Of a DNA stretch of 64,000 bases, positions 2,868 to 38,790 are shown in pieces (positions within the stretch are counted from its first letter, which is position 1; each line of letters begins with the position of its first letter). The DNA is from Candidatus Tumulicola sp. (GTDB lineage Bacteria > Vulcanimicrobiota > Vulcanimicrobiia > Eremiobacterales > Eremiobacteraceae). The DNA lies in contig DATNNM010000010.1 of assembly GCA_035601835.1 (NCBI GenBank), positions 62,001 to 126,000 of the forward strand, written 5' to 3'. A program made the position numbers and the translations under genes. The notes under the pieces are model-generated. The model made no database searches. It saw only the letters and a list, made by a program, of their open reading frames with translations, and had not been told where the DNA came from.

Positions 2868-4418
<1,551 letters not shown>

Positions 4419-4425
4419 GACTCAT

Positions 4426-4476
4426 CCGGGGCTAAAGCCCCGGCACTACACCCGAGCTTCGTTCGGGTCGCTACAT
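4426..4476 (+). repeat. Two palindromic elements between pccB and the epsilon-like ORF
   Basis: The copy at 4426-4450 has the stem ccggggc/gccccgg around TAAA. The copy at 4451-4476 has the stem cccgagc/gttcggg and the tail tcgctacat. They sit inside the operon, just after the pccB stop and six bases before the next start codon. Confidence 0.85.
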
Positions 4477-4481
4477 CTACC

Positions 4482-4682
4482 GTGATCATCACACCGAGGC
4501 CGACGGCGGAGGAGGCCGCAGCCATCGCGGCGGCGCTCGCGCAACTCGGCGCGGGCGGCACGGACCTAAAGGTCCGTGGCTACAAAAGCAAGTGGAGTCG
4601 ACCGGGGCTAAAGCCCCGGCACTACATACAGTTTGATTGGAAAAAAACGGCTAGGCGCGAGGCGGTCGAGCCGGATGTTTAA
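4482..4682 (+). CDS. Acyl-CoA carboxylase epsilon-like small subunit carrying two in-frame palindromic repeats
   Basis: This 66-residue ORF sits between pccB and pccA and overlaps the pccA start by 8 bases, so it is probably translated and coupled. The N-terminal ITPRPTAEEAAAIAAALAQL resembles the short helical epsilon subunits of actinobacterial acyl-CoA carboxylases (PxxEExAAxxAAL pattern). The C-terminal [13 protein letters not shown] resembles their basic tail. Between them lie two palindromic elements read in frame: 4561-4583 encodes TDLKVRGY and 4602-4627 encodes RPGLKPRHY. The original protein was therefore probably about 45-50 residues. The epsilon assignment rests on position and a weak motif; a short spurious ORF cannot be excluded. 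Confidence 0.5.
   Translation: MIITPRPTAEEAAAIAAALAQLGAGGTDLKVRGYKSKWSRPGLKPRHYIQFDWKKTARREAVEPDV
4561..4583 (+). repeat. Palindromic element inside the epsilon-like ORF (first copy)
   Basis: The stem cggacc/ggtccg surrounds TAAA, with the tail tggctac. It is read in frame within the small ORF. The same stem type recurs at 8946, 42846 and 43319. Confidence 0.85.
4602..4627 (+). repeat. Palindromic element inside the epsilon-like ORF (second copy)
   Basis: The stem ccggggc/gccccgg surrounds TAAA, with the tail cactacat. It is the commonest type in the window and is read in frame as RPGLKPRHY. Confidence 0.85.
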
Positions 4683-6432
4683 GAAAATCCTCGTCGCCAA
4701 CCGCGGCGAGATAGCGCTGCGCGTGATCCGCGCCTGCCGCGAACTCGGCATCGCGGCGGTCGCGGTGTACTCGGACGCCGATCGCGAAGCGCTCCACGTC
4801 AAAGCCGCGGACGAAGCGTACCGCGTGGGTCCGCCGCCGGCCGCGCAATCCTATCTCGACATTGATCGGGTCATGCAGGTCGCCGCGTCCGCGAAGTGCG
4901 ACGCGGTACATCCGGGATATGGTTTCTTGGCGGAGAACGCCGCGTTCGCCCGGCGCTGCACGGCCGAGGGCCTCACGTTCATCGGCCCGTCGGCGCGCGC
5001 CATCGACGCGATGGGCGACAAGATCCGCGCTCGCGGCGCGGCGCGTAAGGCAAAAATGCCCGTCGTGCCGGGAACGCTCGAGCCCGTCCGCGACGCCGCG
5101 GCCGTCCGCGCCCTCGGCAAGAAATTCGGCTACCCGATCGTCGTCAAGGCCGCCGCGGGCGGCGGTGGCAAGGGGCTCAAGGTCGCGTTGCGGGCTCAGG
5201 ACGTCGATCAGGCAGTCGCGCTCGCTTCGAAGGAAGCGTCGACCTACTTCAAAGACGGAACGCTCTACGTTGAAAAATACTTGGCGCGGCCGAAGCACGT
5301 CGAGGTGCAGATCCTCGCCGACAAACACGGCCGCGTCGTGCACCTCGGAGAGCGGGATTGCTCGATGCAGCGCCGCCATCAAAAACTTGTCGAGGAGACG
5401 CCGGCTTGTATCGCCGGCGCGCTGCGCAAGCGCCTGCACGCGGCGGCGGTGAGGCTGGCTGAGTCGATAGGTTATGATAGCGCCGGCACGATCGAGTGTC
5501 TCGTCGAGGACGACGAGTTCTTCTTCCTGGAGATGAACGCGCGCATCCAAGTGGAGCACACGATCACCGAGATGACCTGCGGCGTCGATCTGGTCAAAGC
5601 GCAGATCCGGATTGCGACCGGCGAGAAGCTCTGGTTCGCGCAAGACGAGGTGGATCCGCGCGGACACGCCATCGAGTGCCGCATCAACGCGGAATCGCCG
5701 GCGCGCGATTTCATGCCTTGTGCCGGCACGCTGACGGCCTATCGCGAACCCGGCGGGCCCGGCGTGCGCGTCGACTCGGCCGCGTTCGCGGGTCTGACGA
5801 TCCCTCAAGAGTACGATTCGCTGCTGGGCAAACTCATCGTGTGGGGTCAAGACCGGGAAGAGGCCAGGCGGCGCATGCTGCGCGCGCTTGGCGAATACAC
5901 GATCGAGGGGGTGGATACCACCGTCGCGTTTCTCCAACTGCTCGTGCAATCCGACGAGTTCGCGAGCGGCACGTACGCGACCCCGAGCGTCGACGAATTC
6001 GTGCGCGCTCGTGCGGGCGACCTTAGCGCGCTGTATTCCGGTAACGCCTCCGTCTCGGGGTCGCCGCCGGGACCAGCAGCGGAGCCGATCACCGTCGAGG
6101 TCAACGACAAACGCTTCGTCGTCCGGGTCCACGGGTCGCTGACCGCCGCCGCCGACACGCGTCCGGCCGATCGCCGCCCGCCCGCGTTCAAAGCGCCCAA
6201 GAAGATCGCGCACGACGGCGCAACGGTCGTCTCGCCGATGCACGGCATCGTAGCGGAGATCCGCGTCAAGCCCGGCGACCACGTCGCCGACGGCCAGGTC
6301 GTCGCTATCATCGAGGCGATGAAGATGATGAACGAAGTCGTCGCCCATCGCGCCGGCGCGGTTGCGAGCGTTGCCGCGGAGGTCGGCCAGACCGTCGAGA
6401 CCGGCGCGACGCTGATCTCGTTGCGGAGCTAG
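4675..6432 (+). CDS. pccA: Propionyl/acetyl-CoA carboxylase alpha subunit: biotin carboxylase plus biotin carrier domain
   Basis: This 585-residue protein starts at the ATG encoding [20 protein letters not shown], the standard biotin carboxylase start. Domains in order are biotin carboxylase N-domain (1-115), ATP-grasp (about 116-320, with glycine-rich AAAGGGGKG and the [11 protein letters not shown] substrate loop), biotin carboxylase C-domain (about 335-440), linker, and biotinyl domain (about 515-585) with EAMKMMN, whose first Lys carries biotin. It carboxylates its own biotin with bicarbonate and ATP, and PccB then transfers the CO2 to propionyl-CoA. The longer frame beginning at 4633 starts in repeat sequence and is unlikely. 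The 8-base overlap with the upstream ORF suggests translational coupling. Confidence 0.95.
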
Positions 6433-8059: not shown

Positions 8060-8941
8060 ATGTCGATGTGGGAACCGTTCACCGAGCCTGCTCGTCGCAG
8101 CATCGAGTTGGCACAAAACGAGGCGCAACAGCTCGGCAATAACTTCATCGGAACGGAGCATATCCTGCTTGGCGTCATCGGGGAAGGCGAAAACCACGCG
8201 GCTAAGGCCTTGGTATCGATGGGCGTCGATCTGACAAAGGCACGTGCCCGGGTAGAAGCGATTGGCGGAAAGCGCGAACAGGTCGTCCAGCAAGAGATGG
8301 TCTTCACTCCGCGCGCCAAGCGCGTGATCGAACTGGCTTTTGAAGAAGCCCGTCAACTCAAGCACAACTACATCAGTACCGAGCACCTCTTGCTGGGTGT
8401 GATGCGCGACGGCGGATGCGTTGGCGCTCGCGCGCTCGCCGATCTGGGTGTGGAGACCGCAATCCTGCGGCAAAAGATCATCTCGAGCTTGGGCGCGCCG
8501 GCGACCGGGCTTGCAGCAGGTCTGGGGCCTGCCTCTCTTACCGGCCGGCCGATCGATCATGTCGCTCTGGTGGTCGCCGATCTCTTGGCGAGCGAGGCGC
8601 TCTACGCGAGCCTCGGTTTCGTCGTGCGCTACCGCGAGCGCGTAGAGGATCAGGAGGTGGACATCGTCGGCATGAGCGCGGGCGAATCCACGATCGAGTT
8701 GCTCAGACCGCTGCGAGAGGATTCTCCGCTCGTCCGCTTTCTGGGAGACAAGACGTCGAGGCTGCACCATCTCGCCTACCGGGTGGTCAGCATCGTCGAT
8801 GAGCTCGCCAGGCTCAAGGCGCTCGGCTTGCGCCTCATCGATGAAAAGCCTCGGCGCGGCGCGCACGGCAACTTGATCGCCTTCATCCACCCGTCTGCGA
8901 CCGGCGGGGCCCTCATCGAGGTCTGTCAGCCGGCAAGATGA
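8060..8941 (+). CDS. Fusion of Clp N-terminal (ClpC-type) double repeat with methylmalonyl-CoA epimerase
   Basis: This 293-residue two-domain protein ends the propionate operon. Residues 1-145 are a complete Clp_N domain with two repeats (WEPFTEPARRSIELAQNEA...FIGTEHILLGVI and FTPRAKRVIELAFEEA...ISTEHLLLGVM), as at the start of ClpC/ClpA unfoldases but with no AAA+ module. Residues about 160-291 are a VOC-fold methylmalonyl-CoA epimerase: IDHVALVVADL with the first metal His, ESTIELLRPL, LHHLAYRV with the second His, and the hallmark SATGGALIEVCQ with the ligand Glu. The epimerase converts (S)- to (R)-methylmalonyl-CoA between PccAB and the mutase. The role of the Clp_N part is unknown. It begins 15 bases after the mutase. 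Confidence 0.88.
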   Translation: MSMWEPFTEPARRSIELAQNEAQQLGNNFIGTEHILLGVIGEGENHAAKALVSMGVDLTKARARVEAIGGKREQVVQQEMVFTPRAKRVIELAFEEARQLKHNYISTEHLLLGVMRDGGCVGARALADLGVETAILRQKIISSLGAPATGLAAGLGPASLTGRPIDHVALVVADLLASEALYASLGFVVRYRERVEDQEVDIVGMSAGESTIELLRPLREDSPLVRFLGDKTSRLHHLAYRVVSIVDELARLKALGLRLIDEKPRRGAHGNLIAFIHPSATGGALIEVCQPAR

Positions 8942-8945
8942 GAAA

Positions 8946-9064
8946 CACGGACCTAAAGGTCCGTGTCCACAAGGTCCGTGGCTACATCCGAGCTTCGTTT
9001 GGAAGGCTACATCCGAGCTTCGCTCGGAACGCTACATTCCGGGGCTAAAGCCCCGGCACTACAT
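8946..9064 (+). repeat. Cluster of five palindromic elements in a convergent junction
   Basis: The copies are 8946-8970 (stem cacggacc/ggtccgtg), a half copy at 8971-8987 (only the right arm plus tggctacat), 8988-9012 (stem ccgagc with a decayed right arm tttgga), 9013-9037 (stem ccgag/ctcgg, tail aacgctacat) and 9039-9064 (stem ccggggc/gccccgg, tail cactacat). The last tail, read on the minus strand as atgtag, provides the stop codon of the DUF4127 gene. Confidence 0.85.
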
Positions 9065-17268: not shown

Positions 17269-18189
17269 ATGCGCATCGTGAGCCTGCTTCCCAGTGCCAC
17301 GGAGATTCTCTACGCGATCGGCGCCGGCGACCAGGTCGTCGGCGTCACCCACGAGTGCGACTTTCCGATAGAGACGCGCGGCAAGCCGCACCTGACATCG
17401 AGCTCGCTTCCGCAGGTCGCGCGCTCGGCCGACATCGACCGGCATGTCCGCGCCCATCTGCATGTGGGTTCGAGCATCTACGCGCTGGACGGCGCGTTGC
17501 TGGAACGGCTCGAGCCCGATCTCATCGTCACCCAAGAGCTGTGTCCGGTGTGCGCCGTGTCGTACGAGATCGTCAGCGCGGCGACGAAACGGCTCAAGGG
17601 TGATCCTCGGATCGTGTCGCTCGAACCGTCGAGTTTGGAAGACGTCTACGACAACATCCTCGCGGTCGGCGAGCTCGTGAGCCATTCCGAGCGGGCCAAG
17701 AAGTTTGTCGACGGACTGCGTCTTCGCGAACGGAATCTTCGCGCGCTTGTGGCCGGACGATCTACACCTCGTGCGCTCGTGCTCGAGTGGACCGATCCGC
17801 CGATGAGCGGCGGTCATTGGACGCCGGAAATCGTCGAACTCGCCGGCGGGGTTCCCGTGCTCGGCAATCCGCGCAAGGATTCGCAACGCTTGGAATGGAG
17901 CGCGATCGCGCTGGCCGATCCCGACTTCATCATCGTGGCGCCGTGCGGCTTCGATCTCACCACGACGGAGCGTGAGACGCGGGCACTAGAAGGCAACCAG
18001 ATCTGGCGAGAGTTACGCGCCGTGAATTCCGGCGCGCTGGCGCTCGTCGACGGCAATGCCTATCTCAATAGGCCGGGACCGCGCTTGCTTGATACCGCGG
18101 AGATCTTCGCGGTCGCGCTGCACCCGGAAGTCGCCGACCAGCTTCCGCGGTATCCGGACGGGTGGAAAATCGCGGACCGGAAGATGTAG
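17269..18189 (+). CDS. BtuF-like cobalamin-binding protein without signal peptide
   Basis: This 306-residue protein is of the BtuF/FepB-type helical-backbone binding fold. It starts MRIVSLLPSATEILYAIGAGDQVVGVTHECDFP, continues DLIVTQELCPVCAVSYE, has the long backbone helix near residues 140-160 and ends LDTAEIFAVALHP. BtuF proteins deliver vitamin B12 to BtuCD, but this one begins directly with the mature fold and has no signal peptide or lipobox, so it may act in the cytoplasm or be wrongly started. No BtuC or BtuD lies nearby. A B12 role would fit the mutase at 6467. Its last codon and stop (atg tag) come from the tail of an inverted repeat. Confidence 0.75.
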   Translation: MRIVSLLPSATEILYAIGAGDQVVGVTHECDFPIETRGKPHLTSSSLPQVARSADIDRHVRAHLHVGSSIYALDGALLERLEPDLIVTQELCPVCAVSYEIVSAATKRLKGDPRIVSLEPSSLEDVYDNILAVGELVSHSERAKKFVDGLRLRERNLRALVAGRSTPRALVLEWTDPPMSGGHWTPEIVELAGGVPVLGNPRKDSQRLEWSAIALADPDFIIVAPCGFDLTTTERETRALEGNQIWRELRAVNSGALALVDGNAYLNRPGPRLLDTAEIFAVALHPEVADQLPRYPDGWKIADRKM

Positions 18190-18395
18190 TGCCGGGCCTT
18201 TAGGCCCGGAAGAAAAAGGCCGGAGCTAAAGCTCCGGCACTACAACGTAGGGTTAGCGGGATCTAAAGATCCCGCTCCACAACGTCCAGGAAAACATTCC
18301 GGGGCTAAAGCCCCGGCACTACATTTCCGAGCTTCGCTCGGAACGCTACATTCAGGCGCAAGAAAAAGGCCGGGGCTAAAGCCCCGGCACTACAT
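18184..18395. repeat. Cluster of six palindromic elements with five different stems in a convergent junction
   Basis: Copies are 18184-18209 (minus orientation, stem ccgggcc/ggcccgg), 18220-18245 (stem ccggagc/gctccgg), 18256-18282 (stem gcgggatc/gatcccgc), 18299-18324 and 18370-18395 (stem ccggggc/gccccgg), and 18327-18351 (stem ccgag/ctcgg). Two copies are preceded by the same agaaaaagg. The cluster fills the 230-base gap between the BtuF-like gene and TonB receptor 1, with no coding capacity otherwise seen. Confidence 0.88.
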
Positions 18396-37698: not shown

Positions 37699-38790
37699 CT
37701 AGCGCGCTTTGAGCCAATCCGCGATGAGCGGAGGCAAGTCGCGCTGCACTTTTCCGCTCACGTACATGCCGATGTGCCCGACGGGAAACGACTTGGCCGT
37801 GTAGTCGCTCGAGCCGACGTAGTCCTTCAGCGCGGTGGTCGATGCGGGAGGCACAAGCGTATCCTCTTCGCCGTAGATGTTGAGCACCGGCATGCTTATG
37901 CGATGCAGGTCCACGCGCGCGCCGCCGAGTTCCACTTCGCCCTTGATCAGCTTGTTGTGCTGGTAGAAATCCTTGATGAATTGACGCCATGCCTCGCCGG
38001 CCTGATCCGGACTGTCGAAGATCCAGCGTTCCATGCGCAAGAAATTGACGAGCTTTTCACGGTCATCGAGGATGTCGACCAGGTCGGTGTACTTGCCGAG
38101 TCCTAGCGCGAACGGGCGCAGCAGCAAGAAGCCGAAATTCATGAAGTCGCCGGGGATGTTCCCCAACGCCTGGACCATCAGGTCGGCGTCGAGCGCGTCC
38201 GCATCGCCGTTGCAGCCCGCCCATGTGTTGAGCAGTCCTGCGGGGACGTTGAAGTCGACCGGCGTGACCATCGTGATGAAGTTCTTGATGCGCTCCGGAT
38301 GCAGCGCCGCATAGCACAGGCTGAACGTGCCGCCCTGGCAGATGCCGAGCACGTTGATCTGCTCGAGCTTGTGCCGCTTGAGCACGGCGTCGACGCAGTT
38401 GTGGATGTAGCCGTTGACGTAGTCGTCAATCGTCAGCCAGCGGTCCGCGCGCCCGGGGTAGCCCCAATCGATGAGATACACGTCGATGCCGCGCGTCAGC
38501 AAGCCGTGCACAAGCGAGCGATCCTGCTGGAGATCGACCATGTACGGCCGGTTGACCAGCGCGTACGAAACGAGCAGCGGCACCGGATGCAGCTGGCTCG
38601 CGATCGGCGTGTAACGGTAGAGCGTGACGCCGTCCTCGCGATAGATCTCCTGCTTCGGCGATGCGCCGACGATGGTGTCAGCGTCCTTGATCCCGCCGAG
38701 CACCTCCATGCCGCGCACGATCTTGCGGTTGAACTCGATGAGTTCGTGAAGAGCGCTGTCGGGCGTGATGTCGATGGGCAGCGGCGGCAC
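37699..38790 (-). CDS. phaC: Class III poly(R)-hydroxyalkanoate synthase, PhaC subunit
   Basis: This 363-residue alpha/beta-hydrolase-fold synthase is the length typical of class III enzymes, which act with PhaE. The lipase-like box is GICQGG with the catalytic Cys (about residue 151); EEDTLVPP contains the catalytic Asp and FPVGHIGMYVSG the catalytic His. It polymerises (R)-3-hydroxyacyl-CoA from PhaB and PhaJ. It lies two bases downstream of phaE on the minus strand, in a complete PHA block. Confidence 0.96.
   Translation of the reverse strand: MPPLPIDITPDSALHELIEFNRKIVRGMEVLGGIKDADTIVGASPKQEIYREDGVTLYRYTPIASQLHPVPLLVSYALVNRPYMVDLQQDRSLVHGLLTRGIDVYLIDWGYPGRADRWLTIDDYVNGYIHNCVDAVLKRHKLEQINVLGICQGGTFSLCYAALHPERIKNFITMVTPVDFNVPAGLLNTWAGCNGDADALDADLMVQALGNIPGDFMNFGFLLLRPFALGLGKYTDLVDILDDREKLVNFLRMERWIFDSPDQAGEAWRQFIKDFYQHNKLIKGEVELGGARVDLHRISMPVLNIYGEEDTLVPPASTTALKDYVGSSDYTAKSFPVGHIGMYVSGKVQRDLPPLIADWLKAR

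Follow-up and report, generated by a model that had tools for sequence, protein, structure and literature searches.

Palindromic elements of GTAG-tagged REP type lie in frame in the linker of a small carboxylase epsilon-like open reading frame of Candidatus Tumulicola

GTAG REPs, as treated in those parts of Di Nocera, De Gregorio and Rocco (2013, PMC3733652) that deal with their structure and placement, are palindromes of 20 to 40 bp that occur in many copies, mostly in intergenic positions, with some lying wholly within open reading frames (ORFs) and adding residues to the products. The same parts describe several REP types per genome, GTAG REPs lying within ORFs in several species, and different REPs in recB of X. 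campestris and X. oryzae, at nearly the same position. Hypothetical proteins shorter than 120 aa were excluded from that survey, and its discussion takes up the survival of intragenic REPs in linkers or loops and a leaning of such copies to DNA repair genes (PMC3733652). The arrangement of a RAYT gene with flanking REPs is also published, as far as the relevant passages describe it (PMC3733652 and PMC8266576). Our search of the literature on palindromic repeats in Eremiobacterota returned no article that was about REPs by title or abstract.

The locus described here lies in a 64,000-nucleotide stretch of a Candidatus Tumulicola contig (the window, i.e., the whole stretch of DNA that was analyzed). 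It resembles the GTAG REPs in genes of the 2013 survey, in the parts consulted, in palindrome size, tag, copy number, the existence of intragenic copies, and the presence of several types, whereas the host gene here is a 66-aa carboxylase subunit-like ORF, below the survey's limit of 120 aa (PMC3733652). As in the REPtron, in the sections of PMC8266576 that describe it, there is one RAYT with an upstream REP and inverted downstream main-type REPs, here read from sequence alone; the difference is that several stem types here have one tag, with a single RAYT match. Rickettsia palindromic elements (RPEs), in the account given of them in PMC3733652, are likewise palindromic repeats that lie in frame in genes probably staying functional, but their tag is CGTC and the tag here is GTAG, so the present elements are not RPEs in that sense. 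In comparison with actinobacterial-type acyl-CoA carboxylase epsilon subunits (PF13822), as PMC13118682 presents them in the portion used, the small ORF similarly lies beside the alpha and beta genes and has a similar N-terminal segment; the window ORF differs in scoring below the family cut-off and in having REP-coded residues in its linker.

With a probability of roughly 80%, we read the locus as a probably living epsilon-like gene whose tolerant linker received REPs spread by the RAYT. The resident RAYT would spread GTAG-tagged REPs through the genome, and several copies would have landed around accE, the small gene between pccB and pccA. Two REPs at the pccB/accE junction would have parted an ancestral start/stop overlap, and two others would have entered accE, in whose linker insertions would persist only if the frame was kept and stops were avoided. 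Independent parallel events with other REP types would have taken place in at least two related genera.

An earlier note on this DNA had described, between pccB and pccA, a small ORF at 4482-4682 with the recognizable ends ITPRPTAEEAAAIAAAL and WKKTARREAVE, overlapping the pccA start by eight bases and carrying two palindromes of different stem type in frame. The coordinates and both termini were borne out, as was the overlap (pccA ATG at 4675; ORF stop ending at 4682), and the two palindromes (4559-4584 and 4602-4626) are both open in the ORF frame. This inner pair is real, but the gap holds four elements rather than the two that were noted, the others lying at 4426-4450 and 4451-4475 (Table 1). 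Each element is 25 to 26 nt long, within the 20- to 40-bp range of REP palindromes, and all four carry a CTACA tail, which reads as TGTAG followed by the palindrome on the opposite strand. The element at 4426-4450 is identical to that at 4602-4626. The inner two have perfect arms (8 and 9 bp) and different stems, with the AA loop and the tail common to both. An Rfam scan of the window at the gathering threshold gave no match, nor did a distant DNA search of a plasmid collection with positions 4420-4640.

Table 1. Coordinates and putative identities of the features at the carboxylase locus and of two genes elsewhere in the genome (window positions unless a locus is named).
Feature	Position	Strand	Details
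pccB-like carboxyltransferase gene	2868..4418	+	516 aa; stop TAG 4416-4418; Pfam Carboxyl_trans E=1.4e-202
REP element, main type CCGGGGCTAAAGCCCCGG-CACTACA	4426..4450	+	Between pccB stop and accE-like ORF; 185 genome matches of core plus tail
REP element, other stem type (CCCGA..TCGGG-TCGCTACA)	4451..4475	+	Between pccB stop and accE-like ORF
accE-like ORF (acyl-CoA carboxylase epsilon subunit-like)	4482..4682	+	66 aa, GTG start; ends and position conserved in 12/12 family relatives with pccB; Pfam ACC_epsilon E=0.0076, below cut-off
In-frame REP element, stem CACGGACCTAAAGGTCCGTG-GCTACA	4559..4584	+	Product residues 26-35; its 13-mers multicopy in sampled genome
In-frame REP element, main type CCGGGGCTAAAGCCCCGG-CACTACA	4602..4626	+	Product residues 41-49
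pccA-like biotin carboxylase/biotin carrier gene	4675..6432	+	585 aa; Pfam Biotin_carb_N, CPSase_L_D2, Biotin_carb_C, Biotin_lipoyl (scan begun at second codon)
RAYT gene with REPs on both sides	L067 9587-10198 (G000:C16)		NF047646 match plus flanking copies
Seventh REP-bearing gene	L078:5828-7198		

Among the 80 named pccB relatives listed, identities of 71 to 75% were reached by records labeled Candidatus Eremiobacterota (five loci) and also by Chloroflexota and other records. Farther along the window, just after a mutase gene, the ORF at 8060-8941 fuses a Clp_N domain (about residues 1 to 155) to a glyoxalase-type domain that is probably a methylmalonyl-CoA epimerase. The Clp_N part is 67% identical to a match in an 834-aa frame about 10 kb away on the same contig (G000:C10:60060-60527), and none of the matches listed for 20 relatives covered the Clp_N and glyoxalase-type parts together.

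We checked whether a homologous short ORF was absent from relatives or stop-ridden in them. Our family set comprised 13 other genomes, 12 of which have pccB (E ≤ 1e-100), and an open short ORF fills the pccB-to-pccA gap in all 12. In these relatives, pccA follows pccB by 144 to 210 bases (147 to 213 with the second pccA codon as the end point). Carboxylase alpha and beta genes adjoin the short ORF in 13 of 13 family genomes with pccB, the window included. In 10 of the 12 relatives, as in the window, the end of the ORF lies 8 bases past the first pccA codon as aligned; in G011 and G013 it lies 2 bases short of that codon. In 11 relatives the start codon begins one base ahead of the pccB stop codon, and in the remaining one it begins two bases past the first base of the stop; thus, it is never more than 2 bases from the pccB stop, compared with 66 bases past the first base of the stop in the window. 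The products share an N-terminal segment around E-A-A-A-I and a C-terminal W...AR.E, with a variable linker between them, and A14, W53, A57, R58, and E60, besides M1, are invariant in the 13 sequences. For G013, an ORF of 56 aa with a TTG start, chosen from three printed frames, was used for the comparisons of start position, invariant residues, and codons.

The name of the ORF depends on its relatives. Against Pfam ACC_epsilon (PF13822), the window ORF scored 17.3 bits (E=0.0076), below the family's own membership cut-off of 25, and we therefore call it accE-like. Matches at E ≤ 1 were obtained in 6 of 13 family members, with 0.0076 as the best value, and such weak matches are unspecific (E ≤ 10 in 9 of 14 control genomes, above the cut-off in 1). 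No NCBIfam family matched the window ORF at E ≤ 0.1, and a direct protein search with it found few strong relatives (best E outside its own genome, 5.9e-4). The class relatives G031 and G024 each have one ORF above the Pfam cut-off. That of G031 encodes 47 aa and ends at its own pccA start, with its own pccB about 1.5 kb upstream; in its alignment with the window ORF (E=3e-6), a gap of 17 residues faces residues 36-52 and spans the whole second element (41-49). The earlier description as carboxylase epsilon-like is supported by this 47-aa class relative, above the Pfam cut-off beside pccA, and by the short ORF of the 12 family relatives. Given this bridge through relatives, the ORF appears epsilon-like, and epsilon is the best name for it. 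A single-sequence AlphaFold model of the product is too weak for use (mean pLDDT, 63.9; pTM, 0.30); it places residues 9-23 in a helix and residues 30-37 and 46-52 in strands, which lie partly over the REP-coded residues 26-35 and 41-49.

The repeats belong to a family that is abundant in this genome. In the 2.57-Mb genome, the main-type pattern (GGGGCTAAAGCCCCGGCNCTACA, one base being free) matches 185 times (119 forward, 66 reverse); the same pattern read backwards has no match in this genome, and the main-type pattern has none in 20 relatives. A hairpin is closed by CTACA at 21 of its 63 sites in the window, including at least one with an unrelated stem (at 38406); in the reversed window, the corresponding figure is 7 of 172. 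Further stem types are multicopy in the sampled stretches, and the types in the genome include the main type and a CACGGACC type. The reading that the hairpins arose at random in GC-rich DNA and that the ORF is open by chance, with which an ACC_epsilon score below the Pfam cut-off would agree, is ruled out by the 185 versus 0 backwards matches and by the ORF in 12 of 12 relatives.

Y1_Tnp has one match in the whole genome, to a protein that is the NCBIfam REP-associated tyrosine transposase NF047646 (109.7 bits; cut-off, 80). A main-type element lies 44 bases before the ATG of its gene in one orientation, and just past the stop lie a near-identical copy (CA instead of the AA loop) and an exact copy, both in the opposite orientation. 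The protein contains HIH within a DHIHM stretch, which we take to be the HUH motif. Judged on these grounds, the palindromes are this genome's GTAG-tagged REP elements, linked to its resident RAYT, and the flanking copies suggest that the RAYT moved them. Several stem types have one tag in common, with the single RAYT match in the genome.

REPs also cluster elsewhere in the window. Five elements of several stem types lie within 210 bases at 18185-18394, and in the clusters at 1864-1944 and 9012-9063, elements of the main or a near-main type have the same orientation as accompanying ones of a TCCGAGC..GCTCGGA type. The 19-mer TAAAGTCCGGCATACCACA, with 7 copies in a 390-kb sample (G000, L067-L086), carries another repeated tail, CCACA (on the opposite strand, GTGG), and is possibly a GTGG-tagged REP type.

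We surveyed 453,631 bases (the window plus 20 stretches) for element placement and found 125 elements, i.e., 101 between called genes, 10 partly overlapping them, and 14 inside; these fractions are not genome-wide rates, because the gene caller was crude (it did not call accE itself) and the 20 stretches were chosen around known matches or the RAYT. Nine of the 14 inside elements, in seven genes, have the genome's REP stems, 2 of these 9 lying within 10 bases of the gene's 3' end, and the other five, with stems unlike the genome's REP types, are probably chance hairpins. Pfam matches were clear for penicillin amidase, FGAM synthase (PurL), QueA, an IMS-type polymerase, and a RecA-like protein; a sixth gene has FAD-binding matches, and the seventh is listed in Table 1.

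REPs are also read in frame in the purL, queA, and penicillin-amidase genes. The amidase gene (L070 9639-12035) has two adjacent in-frame REPs of different stem types. Among the matches listed, the insert (residues 235-253) lies between the alpha-chain matches (ending by 217) and the beta-chain matches (most starting at 269-272), which places it in the spacer region. The penicillin-amidase spacer is cut out on maturation. In PurL, the REP stretch (residues 422-439) lies in a weakly aligned part after the first AIRS_C match (229-391), and would be a linker joining the two halves. In QueA, the REP stretch covers residues 142-150; its alignment to a solved QueA is weak there but free of gaps, and so this REP may have replaced rather than lengthened the sequence. 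In L068 7768-9845, a REP lies 7 bases from the 3' end of a RecA-like gene and another lies inside the adjacent IMS-type polymerase gene, in line with the leaning of intragenic REPs to DNA repair genes that the 2013 survey describes.

In the window ORF, the two inner elements (26 + 25 = 51 nt) correspond to 17 codons' worth of 66; they make up 26% of the product and would lengthen one of 49 residues by about 35%. The enlargement in frame of a subunit of about 50 residues thus stands, on a base of 49 residues; the earlier figure of nearly half does not, being about 35% by element length, and relatives in which no repeats were detected reach 73 aa. The short ORF encodes 51 to 73 aa in the ten family relatives without a detected multicopy repeat, so the total length of the window product is within the normal range. 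The linker between the conserved blocks is 31 residues long in the window, 23 in G004, and 33 in G007, compared with 14 to 42 in the nine relatives that were parsed and had no detected repeats. So the insertion would lie in a length range that the family tolerates by other means.

In the window the start of accE does not overlap the pccB stop and has two hairpins ahead of it, and no ribosome-binding site was visible by eye before it. Given that the start lies 66 bases past the stop with both outer elements between, and that the genes overlap or touch in relatives, the outer REPs would have parted the start/stop overlap. Because the overlap is lost, two hairpins precede the start, and no ribosome-binding site is visible, accE expression may be reduced. 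The ORF could even be a decaying remnant, in which the REPs at the start ended coupled translation, the open frame is luck, and the elements are mere RNA hairpins. The start/stop overlap or near-contact of 12 of 12 relatives is indeed missing here only, and the folding energy of the 301-base segment 4400-4700 (-133.9 kcal/mol) is lower than that of any of 100 shuffles (z = -4.1). The open frame is also not very unlikely, a single forward main-type element being open, by eye, in two of three frames. However, the family-invariant residues are kept at both ends, the 8-base overlap with pccA is intact, the differences from relatives fall mostly at third codon positions, and two other genera keep the frame across different REPs; we regard decay as distinctly unlikely.

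The codon comparison covered 11 of the 12 relatives (G009, which was not parsed, was left out of this and of the linker comparison). Over 24 anchored codons, the window differs at positions 1/2/3 by 9/4/13 from G011, 7/4/14 from G013, and 9/5/12 from G004, these being the three genomes of genus g5. In all 11 comparisons the third position was the most divergent, the pattern that selection on the protein would produce; versus G007, G008, and G006, positions 1 and 2 were about equally divergent. The accE-like gene most likely still makes a working subunit.

The hairpins might instead be kept to tune the operon, for example by shielding pccB mRNA from 3' exonucleases or by lowering accE/pccA translation. 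Four hairpin elements are packed into about 200 bases of one operon, and REPs between codirectional genes have been proposed as RNA elements in the pertinent part of PMC3733652. Against such a role, the junction pair is missing from 12 of 12 relatives, whose genes overlap or touch, and multicopy repeats, the kind of element searched for, were seen inside the ORF in just 3 of 13 genomes. Moreover, 101 of 125 elements in 454 kb lie between called genes anyway, so no special placement is needed. We consider retention for tuning improbable.

The REPs in the accE linker have counterparts in other genera. We counted 13-mers of the short ORF that occur at least 4 times in a sample of the same genome, and these were present in 3 of 13 genomes, i.e., that of the window, G004, and G007. 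None was found in the other ten family genomes, in samples of relatives of 28 to 80 kb from which rarer repeats could escape. The G007 linker element (GCGAATAAATTCGC then GCCCGCTACA) has 58 copies in G007 and none in six other genomes searched; the G004 linker element (GGTCGAATAAATTCGACC then GCTCCA) likewise has 58 copies in G004 and none in six others. Among those six are the G004 congeners G011 and G013, which are without the G004 element and without detected repeats in the ORF. Both linker repeats are read in frame. Y1_Tnp had no match in G004, and its REPs are thus without a visible mobilizer there. Taken together, these look like three separate REP acquisitions in one linker, each in frame.

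By a hand estimate, a 70-base linker in a genome of about 2.5 Mb with 58 copies would be expected to receive about 0.002 of them, or about 0.015 if insertion is confined to the 10 to 12% outside called genes. Linker REPs in 2 of 12 other genomes exceed this estimate, the count being post hoc and of exact copies only, with clustering ignored. On the one strand scanned, the G004 and G007 elements numbered 16, of which 15 lay between called genes, 1 partly overlapped a gene, and none lay inside; the accE copy of G004 falls in the between-genes class here, since accE is missed by the caller. We suggest tentatively, while thinking it rather doubtful, that the accE linker is a recurrent REP landing place in the family, where insertion may favor the site or the carboxylase complex may benefit from the extra residues.

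Given that intragenic GTAG REPs are already published, the window case is another instance of an established kind. It extends the in-frame decoration of proteins by REPs to a little-studied lineage and to small genes of the size omitted from the 2013 survey. The three parallel cases at one linker can be used to ask whether transposase site choice is at work or selective filtering alone, and they also bear on the tolerance of REP-coded peptides in enzyme subunits.
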